Part shown: positions 4,768-34,831 of the stretch, piece after piece
Numbering within the stretch: position 1 is the first letter of the stretch
Layout: each line of letters starts with the position of its first letter
Origin: a virus
Direction: 5' to 3' (one strand)
DNA: 41,679 bases
IMG/VR virus record: IMGVR_UViG_3300025138_000093
Location: 1 to 41,679 of that record
Program-made: the position numbers and the translations under genes
Notes under the pieces: generated by a model
What the model was told of the DNA's origin: nothing
What the model saw: only the letters and a program-made list of their open reading frames with translations
Databases searched by the model: none

Positions 4768-7700
4768 TTAAGATAAAAATAAGTCTCTTTCGTGTGCTCT
4801 TCTTTTTGATAAACCTGCTAAAACTATACCACCTGATTTATTCCATCTTAAAAGTTCATCTGCTGCATTATTGTAATTTCCTTTATTTAATTCTTTTAAT
4901 AATGTTGAACTTGTAAAATTTCCAGATCCTACATTATAAATAAATGAAACTAAAGCATCAAATTCATTTTGTGTTAAATCTACTTTTACTCTACCATAAA
5001 TATACCCCTGAATATTATCTTGTACATGAGTTAGTAATAATTCAGTAGCTTTAGCTTCAGTAATAGGTTGTGATTTTAAAAGATCTTCCCAATCATCATC
5101 ATCATCTAAACTTCTAGCTGTAGTACCATAACCTATTGTTAATACAGGCGGATTTGCATTATCATAATATTCATTTGCTCTAAAAGCTTCACTTCTTTTA
5201 ATATCTTCTATTCCATTAGTACTAATAGTTAATTCTCTTGGATTAACACGTGGTGATCTATCCTCACCAACTGCATCTTCTAATTCTTTTTGTTTATCAT
5301 TTTTAGCTACTTCTTCTTTATCAGCTTGTGGTTTTTCTGATATTAAAGTTCTAGGAACTGATAAAGTATCAAGTGTGGTTGTCCAGGAATTTACATCAAC
5401 ATTGTGGTTAATACCTTTAACTATAATATCAACACTATCCTTTTCATATGATGGGGGAAGTACATCATCTGTTATTCTAAATTTTTGGAAAAGTTTTATT
5501 CCTGAAATGCCATCCATTTCAAGATTTAAATTAAAAGGAAGGAAAAATGGAGAAGGAACTTTATTTTTTTCTGCTGCTATACCTTGTACTAATTTAATAT
5601 AAGCTGTATAATTTTCTTCAAAAAGAGATACTGTACCTTCTGTAAAATCATAAGCTTTATCATCACTTCCTGCTACATCTCCTTCATAATAATACATGGC
5701 AGAAAAAGGTGAGATTTTATCATTATTTCCAAATGCTTCTTTTGAGTAATATAATTTTTGTTGATATATATTTTTAGCTTGTATAACTCTATTTACCTTT
5801 TTTTCTTTATCTTGCACATAATCATTTTTTTCAGGTAAAATTCTATCTTTTAATCCTCTATTATAATTTGAAAATGATAAAGCATTACCTTGAAGATTAT
5901 TTCCAGTATATTGAGCACCAATGGATATCATAGTAGCAAAATTAGAGGGTATTTCAGCATTCAATCCTATATTAGTAATAAATGATCCAGTAACATTAGA
6001 TTGATTTAAGAAAAAAGAGTTATTTTCAGTTTCTTCTCCTCTTTTCATACCAAAGATATTAAATTTAGTAAATTCACTATCATTAGCTTCTTCATCTAAT
6101 CCTGGTTTAGGTGATTCATCATAAATTTTAACATAACCCGTACTATCATCATATGTTATCATAAAATTATTAATACTACCTAAAGATGTATTTATTCCGT
6201 TTAAGATTGTTTGTAAATAATCTAAAACAGATACAGAACCATCATCATCTTTAGGAGCATTAGCTAAAGATTCTGCTAAAAATGATATGTTTAACATTAC
6301 ACTACCTAATCTTCCAATAAATTTATTATTATCTACTAAAAAATTTGTTTTAAGAAGTACTTTATTCATCATATTTCCTGTTGGTAAATCATTATCATAA
6401 TAAAGATTATCATTATCTTCACCTATTGATCCTTCAAAAGCTTTTACAAATTTTTTATCATATACTTTTGAATAATCTAAATCAAGTTCTGGAATTGAAG
6501 CTTTAGTCCAAGGTACTACACATACATTAGGATTTGCTGATAGGTTTGGAGGCATAATTAACATATAATTATCATCGTTTTCATTTCCAAATGCAAAATC
6601 AAAATTCATTAATTTTCTACCATTTGGTAAAAATAAATTACAAGTTTTTTCAATAATGCTTAATAAAGAAGAAAATTTCATATAAACACTTTTATATCTT
6701 TTGCCTGTTTCACCTCCAAAATTCATATCACCTCTAAAAGTACGATTTATTTGCATTAAACCATGTGGAACACCATAATAACTTTTTTTTATTGTAGAAA
6801 ATTTAGAATTACTATTTTTAAAAAGTTGATAAGCTGAGTAGAATTCTTTGTTTAATTTAGTTTTTTGTTTATTAGATAAAATAGCATCATTTTTTTCATT
6901 ATCTGCTTGCCAATCAGATTTATCTTGAGCTAATTTATTTTGAGCATCATATTTAATTTGGGTCCATGCTATTATATCTTCTTTTCTACTAGTTCTATTA
7001 AATTCATTTTTACTTTTATTCTTAATTTCAGCATTTAAAGCTTTTGGAAATTCCATTGTAGGAAATTTTTGGGTTGAATCTTGAAAATGTTCGTCATTAA
7101 TTCTTTTCCATAAATTATCACCCCAGAATCCTTCACCATATTCCTGAAATGTAGATGATGGTACTATATCTGGGTTAGTGTTAGATTGGTTATTATTAAA
7201 AGGATCAACTACATTTAATTTTAAAGATTGTAAAATATCTCCCATCCCAACTAAATCAATACTAATATCATAGGATCCATCACTATTAAAATTCCATTGA
7301 AAATTAGTTACTTTACCATAAACACCTTCATAATTCCCCCCATGTAATTCTCTTTCATTTTGAATTTTTCTGTACATTGTATTCTGGTCAACAGTAACTC
7401 CTTCTCCAACAGAATCAGGATTTAATAAAAAATCTAAGGGATAAGTTGTAAAAGATGGAAATGGTGTTACACCAAGATTTGTTAAATATTGGGACCATCC
7501 AAATTCTAATAAAAGAGTATATCCAGGTCTTAAATATAAAACATCTATTAATGTAAATTGAGCTTTACTCCAACATTTTAGTTTAACTGTTGCTTTGCTT
7601 AAAGCTCCATTATTATAATAAGTAGTTTGAGCACTAGTAATGCCAGGCATAGGAACATAACCTCTTTCATCAATCCCTCCCCAACCATAACTTCCTTGAA

Positions 7701-28256: not shown

Positions 28257-31200
28257 TTAATCTAATCCCATGTAAAAATTACTTGCAGAATATACTAACC
28301 CACCTGTTATAGGTGTTGGTAAAGTATTTAATGCTCCAAATTGTACTACTCCACTACTACTTACGCTAAATTTTTCATCTTGACCATTACCATCTTTAAT
28401 TTTAATAATAAAAGGATAAAGTGATGTTGTTTCAAAAGTATCAATTAATATACCTGTAGAAGCTGTAAATTGGGCTCCTATTATTGTATTACTTGAACTT
28501 ATATTTCCAGAACTAGTAAAATTACCAAAGATTTGTTGACTACCCGAAACAACTAAGGCATCTGAAGTATTAATATTAGCAGATCCACTACCTATTACAA
28601 CAAAATCTCTTAATTTTAATCTATTGGTATCAGCTTGAGCAAATAATGCCATAGTATTATCCTCATAGAAAATTTTAGTACTAATATTAGTTGCAGCTGC
28701 ATTTAATATTATTTGGTCATCTTCTATAGATATCGTTTCTAAACCATTGATAAAAATATCAATATTATCTTCTCTAAGTTTTAAAAAGTCATTACCAGTT
28801 GTTCCACTTTTAATTTCTAATGTGTCCGGAGCTATTATTTCAGAAGCAGAAGCATTAAATGTTAAACTTTGACTCAATATTAAATCACCACTTGAACTAA
28901 AATTAGATGCAGTTATGTGTGTAAAAGTTGCATTTTGTGCAAAAATATCTCCACTAGCACTAAAATTACCTGATGATGTAATATTACCTGATGAACCTGA
29001 CATTATAATAGAGTAAGGACCCATATAAATGTTTTCAGTTCTAATATTTCTAGCAGCCAAACTTGCTTTTGCTGGATTGTATTGAAGATCACTTAATGTA
29101 GAATCTCTTCCTAAAATTGCTGCTTGAGTTGTTGGATCTACATCAGTAATAAAATTTAAGGCATATTCAGTATTAGCATCATTGGTTTCTATTATAATAT
29201 TTGTATTAGTACCTTGTGTACCTGTTGTACCTTGTATACCTCTTATACCTTGTACGCCTTGAATTCCTTGTATACCTGTTATACCTTGAATACCTGTTAT
29301 TCCTTGAGTACCTTGAATTCCCTGTGTTCCTTGAATACCTTGAATTCCTTGAATACCTGTTATTCCTTGTATTCCTTGAGTACCTTGAATACCTTGAGTA
29401 CCTTGAATTCCTTGAATACCTTGAGTACCTTGAATACCTTGAATACCTGTTATTCCTTGTATTCCTTGAGTACCTTGAATACCTTGAGTACCTGTTATTC
29501 CTTGTATACCTTGTATACCTGTTATTCCTTGTATTCCTTGAGTACCTTGAATACCTTGAGTACCTTGAATACCTTGAATTCCTTGTATACCTGTTATTCC
29601 TTGTATACCTTGTGTACCTTGAATTCCTTGTATACCTGTTATACCTTGAATTCCTTGAGTACCTTGTATACCTATTATACCTTGTATTCCTTGAATACCT
29701 GTTATGCCTTGAATTCCTTGTATACCTTGTGTGCCTTGTATTCCTTGTATACCTGTTATACCTTGAATTCCTTGTATACCTGTTATACCTTGAATTCCTT
29801 GAATTCCTTGAGTACCTTGAATACCTTGTGTACCTTGAATACCCTGTATACCTGTTATACCTTGAATTCCTTGAATACCTTGAGTACCTTGAATACCTTG
29901 TGTACCTTGAATTCCTTGTATACCTGTTATACCTTGAATTCCTTGAGTACCTTGAATTCCTTGTGTACCTTGAATACCTTGAATACCTTGTATTCCTTGA
30001 ATACCTGTTATACCTTGAATTCCTTGAATTCCTTGAGTACCTTGAATACCTTGTGTACCTTGTATTCCTTGTATTCCTTGAATACCTGTTATACCTTGAA
30101 TTCCTTGAGTACCTTGAATACCTTGTGTACCTTGTATTCCTTGTATTCCTTGAATACCTGTTATACCTTGAATTCCTTGAGTACCTTGAATACCTTGTGT
30201 ACCTTGAATACCTTGAATACCTTGTATTCCTTGAATACCTGTTATACCTTGAATTCCTTGAATTCCTTGAGTACCTTGAATACCTTGTGTACCCTGAATA
30301 CCCTGTATACCTGTTATACCTTGTATACCTGTTATACCTTGAGTACCTTGAATACCTTGAGTACCTTGAATACCTTGTATACCTGTTATACCTTGTATAC
30401 CTGTTATACCTTGTATACCTTGTGTACCTTGAACACCTTGATCTCCTTTTTCACCTGTTGTTACAAAACAAACAAGTACATCTTCTAAATTTATAAAAGG
30501 ATCTGTTGCTGATGATGCTTGAGCTCCTATATCTATTGTCCACCACCCTGTATTGTCAGTTAAATCTGAAATTGAAAATAATAAAAATTGGGTTGCATCT
30601 TGTTTATTAGAAATTTTAACATGACCCTTAACTGCAGATGTATTTGCATCAATTGCTGATAAGAAATTTTGAATAGAAGTACCATCATCATCAGTAATAT
30701 CAATATAAATTTTATCAGAAGTAGATTGGGTTCCACCAATATTATTTAATCTTACTTTTCCAGTTCCTGGGTCTGCTGATATTGTTGAAGAATCAAATGT
30801 ATAATCAAAACAAGCTCCACCAAAATTACCTTCTATACCTTGAGTACCTTGAATACCTTGTATTCCTTGAGTACCTTGAGTACCTTGAATACCTTGAATA
30901 CCTTGTATTCCTTGAATTCCTTGAATACCTGTTATACCTTGAATACCTGTTATTCCTTGAGTACCTTGAATTCCCTGTATTCCTTGAATACCTTGAATTC
31001 CTTGAATACCTGTTATACCTTGAATTCCCTGTATTCCTTGAGTACCTTGTATTCCTTGAATACCTTGAATTCCTTGAATACCTGTTATACCTTGAATACC
31101 CTGAATACCTTGAGTACCTTGAATTCCTTGTGTGCCTTGAATTCCTTGTATACCTGTTATACCTTGAATACCCTGAATACCTTGAGTACCTTGAATTCCT

Positions 31201-31937
31201 TGTGTACCTTGAATTCCTTGTATACCTGTTATACCTTGAATACCCTGAATACCTTGAGTACCTTGAATTCCTTGTGTACCTTGAATACCCTGTATACCTG
31301 TTATACCTTGAGTACCCTGAATACCTTGAGTACCTTGAATTCCTTGTGTACCTTGAATACCCTGTATACCTGTTATACCTTGAGTACCTTGAATACCTTG
31401 AGTACCCTGAATACCTTGAATACCTTGAATACCTTGTATTCCTTGAGTACCTTGAATTCCTTGAATTCCTTGAATTCCTTGAGTACCTTGAATACCTTGT
31501 GTACCTTGTATTCCTTGTATTCCTTGAATACCTTGTATACCTGTTATACCTTGAGTACCTTGAGTACCTGCACCTGTAATTCCTTGAATTCCTTGAATAC
31601 CTTGAATACCTTGTATTCCTTGAGCACCTTGAGTACCTGCACCTGTAATTCCTTGAATTCCTTGAGTACCTTGAGTACCTTGAATGCCCTGTATACCTTG
31701 TATACCTTGTATACCTTGTGTACCCTGTATACCTGTTATTCCTTGTATACCTTGAATACCTTGTGTACCTATTATTCCTTGTATACCTTGAGTACCTTGA
31801 GTACCTTGTGTACCTCTAGGACCAGGATGGTTTACTTCAACTACTTTAGTATTACATACTTCTATATTTACTTCAGTACAATTAGTATTGATTTGTAGAG
31901 ATTTACAATTTTTCTTACCACAATTATTACAAGCCAT
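28257..31937 (-). CDS. Giant collagen-like tail fibre 2
   Basis: The 1226-residue fibre has a Cys-rich head (MACNNCGKKNC, then two more Cys within 30 residues) and collagen tracts at about 38-367 and 499-909, made of GIQGIQGTQG and GITGIQGIQ units. Between the tracts is a globular domain (368-498) that clearly matches the insert of fibre 1 (shared ISDLTDNTGWW and FGGA-type segments). The C-terminal 316 residues (910-1226) are a Ser/Asn-rich beta region with repeated SSGNI-, SSGDI-like units, typical of fibre tips. The triplets Ile-Gln and Thr-Gln differ from the Ala-Gln and Asn-Gln triplets of fibre 1. Confidence 0.88.
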   Translation of the reverse strand: MACNNCGKKNCKSLQINTNCTEVNIEVCNTKVVEVNHPGPRGTQGTQGTQGIQGIIGTQGIQGIQGITGIQGTQGIQGIQGIQGIQGTQGTQGIQGITGAGTQGAQGIQGIQGIQGIQGITGAGTQGTQGITGIQGIQGIQGIQGTQGIQGTQGIQGIQGIQGTQGIQGIQGIQGIQGTQGIQGTQGITGIQGIQGTQGIQGTQGIQGTQGITGIQGIQGTQGIQGTQGIQGIQGITGIQGIQGTQGIQGTQGIQGIQGITGIQGIQGTQGIQGTQGIQGIQGITGIQGIQGIQGIQGTQGIQGIQGITGIQGIQGIQGIQGIQGTQGITGIQGITGIQGIQGIQGIQGIQGTQGTQGIQGIQGTQGIEGNFGGACFDYTFDSSTISADPGTGKVRLNNIGGTQSTSDKIYIDITDDDGTSIQNFLSAIDANTSAVKGHVKISNKQDATQFLLFSISDLTDNTGWWTIDIGAQASSATDPFINLEDVLVCFVTTGEKGDQGVQGTQGIQGITGIQGITGIQGIQGTQGIQGTQGITGIQGITGIQGIQGTQGIQGTQGIQGIQGITGIQGIQGIQGIQGTQGIQGTQGIQGITGIQGIQGIQGTQGIQGTQGIQGITGIQGIQGIQGTQGIQGTQGIQGIQGITGIQGIQGIQGIQGTQGIQGTQGIQGITGIQGIQGTQGIQGTQGIQGIQGITGIQGIQGTQGIQGTQGIQGIQGITGIQGIQGITGIQGIQGTQGIQGIQGITGIQGIQGIIGIQGTQGIQGITGIQGIQGTQGIQGITGIQGIQGIQGTQGIQGTQGIQGITGIQGIQGITGTQGIQGTQGIQGITGIQGIQGTQGIQGIQGTQGIQGTQGIQGITGIQGIQGIQGTQGIQGTQGITGIQGITGIQGIQGVQGIRGIQGTTGTQGTNTNIIIETNDANTEYALNFITDVDPTTQAAILGRDSTLSDLQYNPAKASLAARNIRTENIYMGPYSIIMSGSSGNITSSGNFSASGDIFAQNATFTHITASNFSSSGDLILSQSLTFNASASEIIAPDTLEIKSGTTGNDFLKLREDNIDIFINGLETISIEDDQIILNAAATNISTKIFYEDNTMALFAQADTNRLKLRDFVVIGSGSANINTSDALVVSGSQQIFGNFTSSGNISSSNTIIGAQFTASTGILIDTFETTSLYPFIIKIKDGNGQDEKFSVSSSGVVQFGALNTLPTPITGGLVYSASNFYMGLD
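29210..31825 (-). repeat. Collagen-coding repeats of fibre 2
   Basis: Two tracts, about 29210-30445 and 30832-31825, are built of 9-base units encoding Gly-Ile-Gln, Gly-Thr-Gln and Gly-Ile-Thr. Longer blocks of about 54-90 bases recur almost exactly, for example near 30060-30180 and 31150-31390. The antisense open frames of more than 250 codons are produced by this periodicity and are not genes. Confidence 0.9.
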
Positions 31938-31952
31938 TATTATTATTTTATT

Positions 31953-32381
31953 TTAAAATGAACCAATTGTTACTTCATTTGATAGCTTTATAGCTCCCAT
32001 AAGCAATCTTGTTACAGTAGTACAATTAACTCCATTATCTAGACTAGAAGACATTAATTCTAAATCATAAAATCCTTCATTAAATGTTAATAGTGATGAT
32101 GAAGCTGCTGATATATAAATTCCTATAGAACCTGAAGTTAGAGGTTTTGGATAACCAGCTGCTGCTTGAGAACCACTTAAATTTATACCTGTACCACATG
32201 GGCCTAAACTACTACTTAAAGTAATATATAATTGACTTGATGAGAGTTGAGATTGTCTAATAGACATTCTTGCAGTATATCCATCTAAATCTATAGGAAT
32301 ACCATCATCACCTTTATAAAGTACTTCAAAATCAGTAGTTGCACCTTGCTCTATAACAAAAGAATATCGACCTGCTGCCAT
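31953..32381 (-). CDS. Small virion structural protein upstream of the fibres
   Basis: The 142-residue protein begins MAAGRYSFVIEQGATTDFEV, followed by PIDLDGYTARMSIRQSQLSS and a Ser-rich middle. The N-terminal part resembles small proteins found next to fibre genes in aquatic T4-like phages and has an Ig- or BppU-like beta pattern. It is probably a baseplate or fibre-attachment component. It starts the fibre module and is preceded by a TATTTATA element only 9 bases before the ATG. Confidence 0.68.
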   Translation of the reverse strand: MAAGRYSFVIEQGATTDFEVLYKGDDGIPIDLDGYTARMSIRQSQLSSSQLYITLSSSLGPCGTGINLSGSQAAAGYPKPLTSGSIGIYISAASSSLLTFNEGFYDLELMSSSLDNGVNCTTVTRLLMGAIKLSNEVTIGSF

Positions 32382-32390
32382 AATTTTTGT

Positions 32391-32398
32391 TATAAATA
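32391..32398 (-). promoter_or_regulatory. Candidate late promoter element before the fibre module
   Basis: The minus strand reads TATAATATTTATAACAAAAA. The core is 9 bases before the ATG at 32381, the tightest spacing in the set. It separates PhoH from the fibre module. Confidence 0.4.
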
Positions 32399-32416: not shown

Positions 32417-33082
32417 TTAATGATATCCATTCAATAATTCTAATAAATCATCAATAGCGTCATGTCTGTGATTATCTTGTAAAACACATTTGTGAACATA
32501 TTTAGAATTTATTAACTTAGCCATGTCATGATATGCTGAATAGTTTTTATCTTTTAAGTCCATTTGATATGAATCTCCACAAAATAACATTTTAGAATCT
32601 TTACCTAATCTACCTATAGCCATTGCTAGTTGTGAACGTGTTAAATTCTGGAATTCATCTACAATAACAATTGCATTATCAAATGTTCTTCCCCTAAAAT
32701 GAGCTAAAGAAACTAATTCAATTGTTTCATCTTTTTCCATTTTTTCTAATATCGTAGGTTTATTGTAAATTTTTCTCATATTAGAACGAATAGGTACTAA
32801 CCAGGGCTCCATTTTTTCTCTTTCTGACCCCGGAAGAAAACCATTATCTTCTGTAGATATAGTAGGTCTTGTAATTATTATTTTATTACATTGTCTTTTA
32901 AAAAATTGATCTAATGCAATTTGTACAGCTAATAGGGTTTTACCTGAGCCTGCTTTCCCAACTATAAAATTAAAGGGATGATTTAATATTTCTGTTTTTG
33001 CATTTTTTTGTTCTTCAGATAAACTTAAAGAAAATCTTACAGATCCTTTAGGTGGTGTTTTTGATATATTAGTTTTTGGCAT
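32417..33082 (-). CDS. phoH: PhoH-like ATPase
   Basis: This is a P-loop ATPase of the PhoH family, common in marine phages and linked to phosphate stress or RNA metabolism; its role in phages is unsettled. Walker A is GKAGSGKT at 42-49 and Walker B is NAIVIVDEFQN at 136-146 with Asp142 and Glu143. Two further family segments are IIITRPTIST near 68-77 and MLFCGDSYQMD near 165-175. The 221-residue length fits the single-domain form. It overlaps the phosphatidylserine decarboxylase-like gene by 14 bases, so the two are translated from one mRNA. Confidence 0.92.
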   Translation of the reverse strand: MPKTNISKTPPKGSVRFSLSLSEEQKNAKTEILNHPFNFIVGKAGSGKTLLAVQIALDQFFKRQCNKIIITRPTISTEDNGFLPGSEREKMEPWLVPIRSNMRKIYNKPTILEKMEKDETIELVSLAHFRGRTFDNAIVIVDEFQNLTRSQLAMAIGRLGKDSKMLFCGDSYQMDLKDKNYSAYHDMAKLINSKYVHKCVLQDNHRHDAIDDLLELLNGYH

Positions 33083-33800
33083 AATTTATTTTAATTAATT
33101 TGTCTAATCCCGCATTTATATGCATTGTTTCTTTTAATAATAACTCAAATTGGTATCTATTATCTATAGGTAAAACTAAATCTACTTGAGATCCCCATCT
33201 TATTAAACTAAATCTTTCATTTTGAGTACATAAATCTCCTTGTTGTTTAAAAGGTGCTATAACATTTACATCTTCATCTGCAATTTGTACTATATAATAA
33301 GTATAATCTAAAGATGAATTATAAATGGTATTAAGTACTCTTTCATTATATTTTAAATAATCCATATTATTAGGATTAATTACATTATTTAGAATATCTT
33401 TTTCTACAGCTAACATAGGTTTATTAGTAGATTCAATAGGTTCTAAACGATTATATTTAATGGTACCACTATATGGAATTCTATTTATATGTACATCATA
33501 AAACGACATAAAAATTCCTATAACTAATGAAGGTTTATTATAATCTTTATCACCCATTACATCTTGTAATGTATAATTTTTACCTTTTATTTCAATAACT
33601 TGTTCACAACATGGTGTTCCGGGTAGTACTACTTTTTGGTATAGTATAGTTCCATCAGCAGGACTATAAAAATAATTATTATCTATATAAGTAGGTCTTA
33701 ATGGATCTCTAAAGAAAAATGTATTACTAAGTTCACCAATAGAAAATTTTTGTAATTCAGCAACTTCTCCATTTAACCAATCTTCTAACTCTTCAGCCAT
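33069..33800 (-). CDS. Phosphatidylserine decarboxylase-like enzyme, pyruvoyl type
   Basis: The 243-residue protein matches small bacterial phosphatidylserine decarboxylases, which convert phosphatidylserine to phosphatidylethanolamine using a pyruvoyl group made by self-cleavage. Markers in order: FFRDP at 29-33, YSPADGTI at 45-52 with Asp49, SFYDVHINRIPYSG at 99-112 with His104, and the cleavage region RFSLIRWGSQVDLVLP at 196-211, where Gly203-Ser204 corresponds to the GS of the LGST motif. The second His of the E. coli enzyme is Arg here, as in many short-form enzymes (DVHVNR type). There is no membrane segment. Start and stop overlap its neighbours (TAATG with the amidinotransferase gene, 14 bases with phoH). 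Confidence 0.88.
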   Translation of the reverse strand: MAEELEDWLNGEVAELQKFSIGELSNTFFFRDPLRPTYIDNNYFYSPADGTILYQKVVLPGTPCCEQVIEIKGKNYTLQDVMGDKDYNKPSLVIGIFMSFYDVHINRIPYSGTIKYNRLEPIESTNKPMLAVEKDILNNVINPNNMDYLKYNERVLNTIYNSSLDYTYYIVQIADEDVNVIAPFKQQGDLCTQNERFSLIRWGSQVDLVLPIDNRYQFELLLKETMHINAGLDKLIKINYAKN

Positions 33801-34714
33801 TAAAGAAGTGTTTTAAAATGATCTACTCTATTTAAGTGCATTACCATACAACTTAACATGGCTCCAGATTTCATATATTCTGATAGGTTAAAAATTATAG
33901 GTTCCATACCTTCATTAGAACATATTTTTTCTAATGATTCAATTTTATGTTTTTCACCTTCATAAAATTCATCTCCTCTTTTCATTTCTGATATGTTAGA
34001 GGCACATAAAACCATATTTCCTAATCTAACTGAATTTGCTATCCCATAAGTTGAATCATCTGCATTTACATCAATTATATTTGTATAGCGTGATATATGT
34101 GATAATTCTTTTTGGTCATATAACTCAGTACAAACTATTGAGTTATTATTATTTAACGGGAATATACTGCAGTCTAGGTGATACATATATTCGTCGGTCA
34201 TACGAACTTTAATAATTTCCATATTAAAATTTTCTTCCATCCATTCATAAGTTTTAATGTCAGATCTTATACCATACCCCCCAATATAAACATTATCTTT
34301 TAAATATTTTATATCAGCTTCACCCTCCCATTTATGGGGTGATATATGAGTTTTATAACCCATTTGGTTGAAAAATTTTTCACCAACATATTCTTCACCT
34401 TGTCTTGGAAGGGATGTATAATTAGATAATAATATATGATTTTCTTCACAAATGTGGGGTAAATGTAATCCTAAATTAGCAACATATACTAAATCTTGAA
34501 AATTTCCTTCAGCTGGGAGAAGATGTACTAACGATTGGCCTGCCATAAAGTTATAAAGATCCATAAATTGTTTGTAAGCTTTCGGACGATTTATAGATAA
34601 TTCTTCTTTTGACATTTCTTTCATCCAAACATTATTAGGATCATTTGTTGAAAATGTAAAAGGGAAATTCATTAAATAACTTTGAATAGGTAACTGTGAT
34701 GGTGTTTCTTTCAT
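33800..34714 (-). CDS. COG1834-type amidinotransferase / dimethylarginine hydrolase-like enzyme
   Basis: The 304-residue protein belongs to the pentein superfamily of guanidine-modifying enzymes, which use a Cys nucleophile and a His base to break a C-N bond of a guanidino group. Matches: WEGEADIKYL at 129-138 (the substrate-binding E-x-x-x-D), YIGGYGIRSD at 143-152, YHLDCSIFPL at 168-177 with His169 and Asp171, and LSEYMKSGAMLSCMVMHL at 277-294 with Cys289. The family includes dimethylarginine dimethylaminohydrolases and amidinotransferases, and the sequence alone does not tell hydrolase from transferase. It starts the three-gene cassette after gp23's terminator, with its own TATTTATA element upstream. 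Confidence 0.85.
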   Translation of the reverse strand: MKETPSQLPIQSYLMNFPFTFSTNDPNNVWMKEMSKEELSINRPKAYKQFMDLYNFMAGQSLVHLLPAEGNFQDLVYVANLGLHLPHICEENHILLSNYTSLPRQGEEYVGEKFFNQMGYKTHISPHKWEGEADIKYLKDNVYIGGYGIRSDIKTYEWMEENFNMEIIKVRMTDEYMYHLDCSIFPLNNNNSIVCTELYDQKELSHISRYTNIIDVNADDSTYGIANSVRLGNMVLCASNISEMKRGDEFYEGEKHKIESLEKICSNEGMEPIIFNLSEYMKSGAMLSCMVMHLNRVDHFKTLL

Positions 34715-34739: not shown

Positions 34740-34747
34740 TATAAATA
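34740..34747 (-). promoter_or_regulatory. Candidate promoter element for the metabolic cassette
   Basis: The minus strand reads TTGTATATTTATACCACGAA. The core is 25 bases before the amidinotransferase-like ATG and 38 bases past the gp23 terminator, so the three-gene cassette can be expressed on its own. The downstream A-rich block of the consensus is weaker here. Confidence 0.38.
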
Positions 34748-34785
34748 TACAATTAATTTATTTAATAAACAAATAATAATAAAAA

Positions 34786-34807
34786 AAGCCCCGCTAATGC
34801 GGGGCTT
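34786..34807 (-). terminator. Intrinsic terminator after major capsid gene
   Basis: The minus strand reads AAGCCCCGC-ATTA-GCGGGGCTT followed by a T-run. The stem is 9 bp with seven G-C pairs, in strong contrast with the A+T-rich surroundings. It lies 24 bases after the gp23 stop and would separate the highly expressed capsid gene from the cassette downstream. Confidence 0.93.
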
Positions 34808-34831
34808 CTTTAAATATATATTAGACTACTA

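Follow-up and report, generated by a model that had tools for sequence, protein, structure and literature searches.

What could a pentein enzyme do for a marine phage that encodes it immediately ahead of a member of the phosphatidylserine decarboxylase (PSD) family? The question is raised by IMG/VR virus record IMGVR_UViG_3300025138_000093, whose 41,679 nucleotides were analysed as a whole (the window). An initial annotation saw here a guanidine-modifying pentein coupled to PSD and PhoH genes, and offered nitrogen recovery from arginine, action on a methylated arginine, or amidino transfer as its purpose. Comparison of the genes, their predicted folds and their company in other genomes suggests a different answer, to which we give an even chance: the pentein and the PSD-like protein may form a two-enzyme polyamine cassette, in which the first converts arginine to ornithine and the second decarboxylates ornithine to putrescine. 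The two genes are:

33800..34714, minus strand: pentein, 304 amino acids, predicted arginine dihydrolase-like hydrolase (open reading frame, nearest families, model fold, invariant residues)
33069..33800, minus strand: PSD-family protein, 243 amino acids, predicted soluble pyruvoyl-dependent amino-acid (possibly ornithine) decarboxylase (PF02666, motifs, fold, linkage)

The pentein open reading frame (ORF) is intact on the minus strand and has an ATG start; its 304 codons agree with the initial annotation. It is a gene beyond chance because it matches an uncharacterised family of the PHROGs database (PHROG_12759, 3e-59), recurs as 103 distinct viral genes and shows no stop within the aligned part of the 80 viral loci that were checked; the viral scans gave the best 80 of 126, 209 and 222 relatives, and the distinct-gene set leans to close relatives. 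The catalytic residues are E130, D134, H179, D181 and C289. Three of them (E130, D134 and C289) had been named before, but the H169-L-D171 motif named with them is absent: the actual motif is H179-L-D181, ten positions further on. The whole mapped site, N28, D74, N80, R104, E130, D134, R150, H179, D181 and C289, corresponds to N22, D65, N71, R90, E118, D122, R139, H168, D170 and C264 of the cyanobacterial enzymes AgrE and ArgZ (numbers counted on the sequence alignment, that of C264 being taken from PDB titles), and all ten residues are unchanged in 80/80 viral loci.

No Pfam family matched the pentein at E 0.1, and amidinotransferase families were found neither in Pfam nor in NCBIfam at that threshold. 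The best NCBIfam models were arginine dihydrolase (NF052232, 2e-24, 86 bits for a cut-off of 450) and mycobacterial-type DDAH (NF045659, 6e-23, 81 bits for a cut-off of 300), and AgrE/ArgZ were the only PDB sequences matched (phmmer at E 1; a 13-row profile at E 0.01). An AlphaFold2 model built from 31 sequences (mean predicted local distance difference test score, pLDDT, 93.8) is closest to ArgZ (6jv0, Z 35.0, 1.8 Å over 264 residues) and AgrE (Z 34.9), followed by the dihydrolase AstB (27.7), DDAH (27.1), arginine deiminase (26.6), the amidinotransferases (22.8-24.4) and agmatine deiminase (20.8); the top 50 structural matches align over 241-278 residues and nearly all are named penteins. 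Judged by this predicted fold and by its catalytic residues, the protein is a member of the pentein superfamily. The tree gives it a clade of its own: 35 phage and bacterial rows, the window's pentein included, are split at 100/100 from 13 ArgZ/DDAH-like rows (four duplicate reference rows and loci L193, L224, L225 and L231, whose ORF was missed by the filter, were left out). Within this clade the support for joining the marine phages to the bacterial PSD-linked rows is no higher than 89/92, and the rows from Campylobacter and Bacteroides phages form long branches. By score and by tree the pentein is thus outside the ArgZ/AgrE family, in a separate clade; by fold and site it may nonetheless work as an arginine dihydrolase does. 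Asn80 (Asn71 in ArgZ) was considered as a marker of dihydrolases and dropped, all rows of the DDAH-like reference group carrying Asn; of eight proteins scanned from this group, five lie above the DDAH-Mtb cut-off (340-410 bits) and three above neither that nor the dihydrolase cut-off.

These rankings bear on the functions first proposed. That one of them should hold, with the PSD-like gene serving a separate function, we regard as improbable. Amidino transfer is not favoured: many Campylobacter phage records do label the pentein an amidinotransferase, but the amidinotransferase structures score Z 22.8-24.4 against 35 for ArgZ/AgrE. DDAH activity on methylarginine keeps some standing by sequence, the mycobacterial-type DDAH model scoring about as high as the dihydrolase model (81 and 86 bits), but its fold (Z 27) again ranks below ArgZ and the decarboxylases neighbouring the relatives would be left unexplained. 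Nitrogen recovery, two ammonia being expected per arginine, would be a by-product and not the main purpose, since the constant partner of the pentein is a decarboxylase. A separate function for the PSD-like gene does not explain their near-perfect co-occurrence.

The partner protein matches Pfam PF02666 well above the gathering threshold (3.3e-27, 95.9 bits against 22) and retains the PSD catalytic residues: D49, H104 and the self-cleavage site G203-S204. D49 is found in 77/77 viral loci, H104 in 76/77 and S204 in 74/77, the remainder having no aligned residue. One might therefore see in it a true PSD that remodels host lipids, its linkage to the pentein having some other cause. We consider this very unlikely. 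The best NCBIfam equivalog score, 85 bits, falls short of the cut-off of 183. The protein lacks the membrane segment typical of ordinary PSDs: the N-terminal 19-residue hydrophobicity maximum lies between -0.91 and 0.45 in the PSD-like proteins (21/21 readable) and between 1.09 and 3.04 in ordinary PSDs (12/12 readable), rows with no readable motif being unscored (L224, partial, among the PSD-like; L212, L258 and L263 among the ordinary). An ordinary, better-scoring PSD is also present in 6/6 tested bacterial owners, out of nine PSD-like genomes. The tree separates the PSD-like clade from the ordinary PSDs at 100/100; the single exception is an ordinary row on a very long branch (L258, 3.16) that sits beside a PSD-like row, which we take for long-branch attraction. 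The separate ordinary PSD, the missing hydrophobic segment and the clade apart make it improbable that the PSD-like protein works on lipids, and its exchange with amino-acid decarboxylases in bacteria, described below, also argues against a true PSD. Its predicted model, built from 15 sequences (pLDDT 78.3), resembles glucose EIIA (Z 11.1), the PSD of E. coli (the best PSD, Z 10.2, root-mean-square deviation 6.6 Å), PsiD (Z 9.2) and the arginine decarboxylase of Aspergillus oryzae (9jf5, Z 8.8). As the last two show, enzymes that decarboxylate free amino acids can have a PSD-type fold.

The coupling of the two genes proved stronger than the initial annotation could tell from one genome. Among distinct viral penteins a PSD-like gene lies no more than 1.5 kb downstream in 101/103, and the other two contigs end within 85 nucleotides; in the first 80 viral loci it directly follows the pentein in 78, the other two contigs ending there. 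It is found within 400 nucleotides in 218 of 225 locus records, many of which are repeats of one contig, and six of the seven exceptions are contigs that end within 85 nucleotides. The seventh has an intervening ORF (L313:5628-6629) that looks by eye like a GIY-YIG homing endonuclease, as we presume from the motif. Of 50,697 phage records, the PSD-like protein has a match in 45, and in 45/45 of these the pentein is matched too (lists compared by eye); the pentein is matched by 47, the two without PSD being PP921807, with the gene in pieces, and a Xanthomonas phage whose match is a DDAH of 20% identity. Both counts include RefSeq/GenBank duplicates and near-identical Campylobacter phages. The records are mostly close relatives, so the independent phage cases are few, namely the marine, Bacteroides and Campylobacter groups; the viral contigs, scanned with the Bacteroides phage protein, yielded no relative. 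In Campylobacter phage NCTC12673 the two genes lie ~42 kb apart, so that the association goes beyond mere adjacency. We also note a contig from a Flavobacteriales metagenome-assembled genome bin (L160, NZWA01000018.1) on which gp21, gp23, pentein and PSD-like gene are all found, 68-86% identical to those of the window. It is a phage contig, and its bin is a weak hint of a Flavobacteriales host.

Bacterial genomes provide the second line of evidence. A pattern scan of 84,980 genomes gave 23 loci, of which 22 are bacterial, L160 being excluded as a phage contig. The PSD-like gene adjoins the pentein in 10/22, in the order PSD then pentein, the reverse of that in phages, and an unrelated decarboxylase adjoins it in 6/22. 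Four cyanobacteria share one kind of such partner (Orn_Arg_deC_N by Pfam in L168 and L170; L165 and L167 assigned by 62-65% identity), whose nearest PDB entries are lysine/ornithine and ornithine decarboxylases and in which the NDG and TCD motifs align; in Spirulina the partner is an OKR_DC_1 enzyme, and in a myxobacterium it is a carboxynorspermidine-decarboxylase-like fragment at a contig end. Among 20 pentein-bearing genomes the PSD-like protein is present in nine, exactly those with the adjacent gene. A sample of 396 genomes around one of these, G006 (included), holds three genomes with the pentein clade and two with the PSD-like clade, both among those three; the third, G134, has a short stretch resembling the PSD-like C-terminus in frame before the pentein, which we read as a remnant. 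More adjacent pairs occur in G018, G198, G753, G783 and G948.

The pair in G948 (L231, G948:C341, 83000-96000, from the Verrucomicrobiales sample) lies in DNA of 28% G+C, runs in the phage order (pentein then PSD-like) and adjoins a dUTPase-like ORF recognised by eye; it is probably on a phage contig. Both genes of L176 are split between reading frames. Seven loci (L161, L162, L164, L176, L224, L225 and L226; L162 was scanned in Pfam and the other six were called by similarity to it) have a gene for a MatE-type exporter close to the pair, which would fit amine export. Three cyanobacteria (L165, L167 and L168) encode, close to the pentein and its decarboxylase partner, another pentein of agmatine deiminase type (PAD_porph, scanned for L168 and assigned by similarity in the other two); transporter-like ORFs, recognised by eye, come after them.

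The constant company of a decarboxylase, the exchange with decarboxylases of basic amino acids and polyamines, the dihydrolase-like site and the missing membrane segment together point to the route arginine, ornithine, putrescine; it is because of the partner exchange that we infer ornithine decarboxylase activity for the PSD-like protein. From the motifs, folds and linkage observed here, the two reactions and their order would be as follows. The pentein would hydrolyse both guanidine C-N bonds of free L-arginine through a covalent intermediate on Cys289, assisted by His179, Glu130, Asp134 and Asn80, and, like ArgZ/AgrE, release L-ornithine, CO2 and two NH3. The partner of the PSD family would cleave itself at Gly203-Ser204 to generate its pyruvoyl cofactor and, lacking a membrane segment, decarboxylate the soluble product of the pentein; this is most likely ornithine, which would yield putrescine. 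In this way the phage would obtain putrescine from arginine with neither pyridoxal phosphate nor the agmatine route.

The order of the two steps may be questioned. The PSD-like protein could instead be an arginine decarboxylase that makes agmatine, which the pentein would turn into putrescine or N-carbamoylputrescine, or both enzymes could act on arginine in parallel. A PSD-fold arginine decarboxylase structure has been solved (A. oryzae, 9jf5/9jer) and arginine decarboxylase is the top-scoring name, below cut-off, for the Spirulina partner. Nevertheless, we hold this order to be unlikely, though worth keeping in mind: agmatine deiminases rank lowest by fold of the named pentein activities (Z 20.8), the closest PDB entries to the cyanobacterial partner are ornithine and lysine/ornithine enzymes, and R104 and R150 are invariant in 80/80 loci. 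The equivalents of these two arginines in ArgZ presumably hold the substrate carboxylate, which favours an amino-acid substrate over agmatine, a molecule that has no carboxylate. Alternatively, the pentein could be an arginine deiminase yielding citrulline, which the PSD-like protein would decarboxylate to N-carbamoylputrescine for a host amidohydrolase to convert to putrescine. The shared fold (Z 26.6) allows this, and the second hydrolysis of a dihydrolase is unreadable from residues alone, but the dihydrolases ArgZ and AstB both outrank the deiminases by fold, and the ornithine-type structures nearest to the cyanobacterial partner imply ornithine over citrulline. We judge the citrulline route quite unlikely. 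Both routes would likewise end in a polyamine.

Several observations weigh against the arginine-ornithine-putrescine route. The pentein reaches 86 of the 450 bits required of an arginine dihydrolase and is split from ArgZ/AgrE at 100/100; Asn80 also occurs in rows passing the DDAH-Mtb cut-off, so that this residue does not decide the reaction; and a true ArgZ coexists with the pentein-clade protein in 5/5 tested cyanobacteria. The fold matches of the PSD-like protein are modest, and it retains the G-S cleavage site of PSDs. In bacteria, 6/22 loci, all alphaproteobacterial, lack a recognised decarboxylase within ~6 kb. The exchanged partners score best in NCBIfam as diaminopimelate decarboxylase (cyanobacteria, 135/297.9 bits; ornithine/lysine DokD 36.9/700), arginine decarboxylase (Spirulina, 120/1167 bits) and carboxynorspermidine decarboxylase (myxobacterium, 209/409 bits), and with such mixed names below cut-off the partners do not prove ornithine as the common substrate. 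Spermidine synthase families were not found in nine phage records, possibly incomplete, which would make putrescine the end product or one fed to the host. Finally, the catalytic cysteine is missing from three Streptoalloteichus penteins although a PSD-like gene persists alongside; these copies (L180 and L182, near 6001-6894, and L193, 2238-3194) carry S or R in place of the Cys and have no Asn80. They suggest that the pentein may also be a non-catalytic physical partner of the decarboxylase. In its wider form our proposal is a putrescine pathway made of a stand-alone arginine dihydrolase, possibly also a physical partner, and a soluble pyruvoyl-dependent ornithine decarboxylase of the PSD family, occurring in Actinomycetota, Verrucomicrobiota and phages (marine T4-like, Bacteroides and Campylobacter); this we put slightly below an even chance.

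Polyamines have a role in phage heads. The putrescine would probably serve to neutralise and package DNA, or else late translation. A further possibility is that phage DNA, or some other macromolecule, is modified with the ornithine or putrescine, like the putrescinyl-thymine of phage phiW-14, whose putrescinyl groups were labelled from ornithine according to PMC5977210. That label came from ornithine, not arginine, and the exporter near the bacterial pairs in seven loci points to a free amine; we see only a slight chance of such attachment.

The remaining features of the locus concern its borders and its third gene:

32417..33082, minus strand: PhoH-like ATPase, third gene of the run (PF02562, 6e-49)
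34782..34811, minus strand: terminator-like hairpin that follows gp23 and bounds the cassette upstream (13 pairs, 7 of them G-C, T-rich tail)
34740..34747, minus strand: TATTTATA (coding strand), candidate promoter or leader element, 25 nucleotides before the pentein start codon
32391..32398, minus strand: second TATTTATA, preceding the gene after PhoH (31953-32381)

The three genes overlap (pentein and PSD-like gene by 1 nucleotide, PSD-like gene and PhoH by 14), and in place of the terminator said to isolate the cassette from gp23 there is a terminator-like hairpin of 13 pairs at 34811-34782; one hairpin was found in the search against a shuffle mean of 1.2, so that the evidence lies in its position and not in the count. 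In the marine group the gene next in line is PhoH in 85/85 distinct cases where the contig leaves over 2 kb. We nevertheless do not count PhoH in the module common to phages and bacteria. The 22 bacterial loci gave no PhoH match at E 1e-3, nor did two annotated phage loci at E 1e-5, and PhoH was rejected as a member, being a neighbour in marine phages only, of lower similarity and unmatched beside the bacterial copies. Among L004-L083, a few close relatives share 92-97% identity with the window's PhoH (32417-33082) but most others ~41-50%, although the pentein and PSD-like neighbours stay ~70-90% identical there, which suggests that the PhoH gene has been replaced among relatives.

The element TATTTATA lies within 45 nucleotides of 8/31 listed gene starts (10798, 13434, 15074, 17429, 20531, 28182, 32381 and 34714), against 1.5% of random 45-mers, an enrichment that was observed post hoc. 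It sits 9-30 nucleotides ahead of the start codon, mostly with an A-rich run after it, and may be a promoter or leader motif in this group of phages; the copy at 32391-32398 suggests that the next unit starts at the gene after PhoH. A T4-type late promoter (TATAAATA, coding strand) was not found before the pentein, the match there being on the opposite strand. Further on, 28257-31937 (minus strand) encodes a 1226-residue protein with collagen-like G-T/I-Q-G repeats and non-repeat islands, probably a fibre; its repeats create long spurious ORFs on the opposite strand.

If the arginine-ornithine-putrescine route is right, phage genes annotated as phosphatidylserine decarboxylase and amidinotransferase together encode a polyamine pathway, and virus surveys that interpret them as lipid genes would need checking. 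A further protein family would join the putrescine-making enzymes, and one metabolic module would be common to marine, gut-commensal and Campylobacter phages. The proposal concerns two short genes and is testable by a simple amine assay.

How does the pair compare with what has been described? In the literature searched, most subscription journals lying outside it, we found no ornithine decarboxylase of the PSD family and no such gene pair. According to PMC9992855 and PMC10407285, phages do encode polyamine enzymes, including SpeD-derived pyruvoyl ornithine/arginine decarboxylases; these resemble the PSD-like protein in their pyruvoyl-dependent polyamine role but belong to a different protein family, and in the main text of PMC9992855 there is no mention of phosphatidylserine, amidinotransferase, dihydrolase, arginine deiminase, Campylobacter or Bacteroides. 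An ocean virus survey (PMC11360552) reads pssA and psd as phospholipid genes and reports a creatine-pathway methyltransferase in viruses, and PMC2853527 mentions putative glycine amidinotransferases in other Campylobacter phages, CP220 and CPt10. PsiD, which acts on tryptophan, and the A. oryzae arginine decarboxylase share the PSD-like fold and are named for free amino acids, but they are fungal, have larger chains and use another substrate, and a profile of the phage PSD-like proteins matches neither at E 10. The closest counterparts in known phages are the "amidinotransferase" of Campylobacter phages (such as Fletchervirus NCTC12673) and a hypothetical protein of Bacteroides phages DAC and SJC, ~38% identical over 94-95% of the pentein, with the same active site and a PSD-like gene in the same genome. 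NCTC12673 differs in that its two genes are unlinked and labelled amidinotransferase and phosphatidylserine decarboxylase, and we think both labels misleading. The nearest characterised enzymes are the cyanobacterial ArgZ (Sll1336) and AgrE (Alr4995), which the pentein resembles in fold (Z 35, 1.8 Å) and in the mapped site residues. It differs from them in its separate clade (100/100; 86 of 450 bits) and in its architecture, being free of their ornithine cyclodeaminase domain and partnered instead by a decarboxylase.

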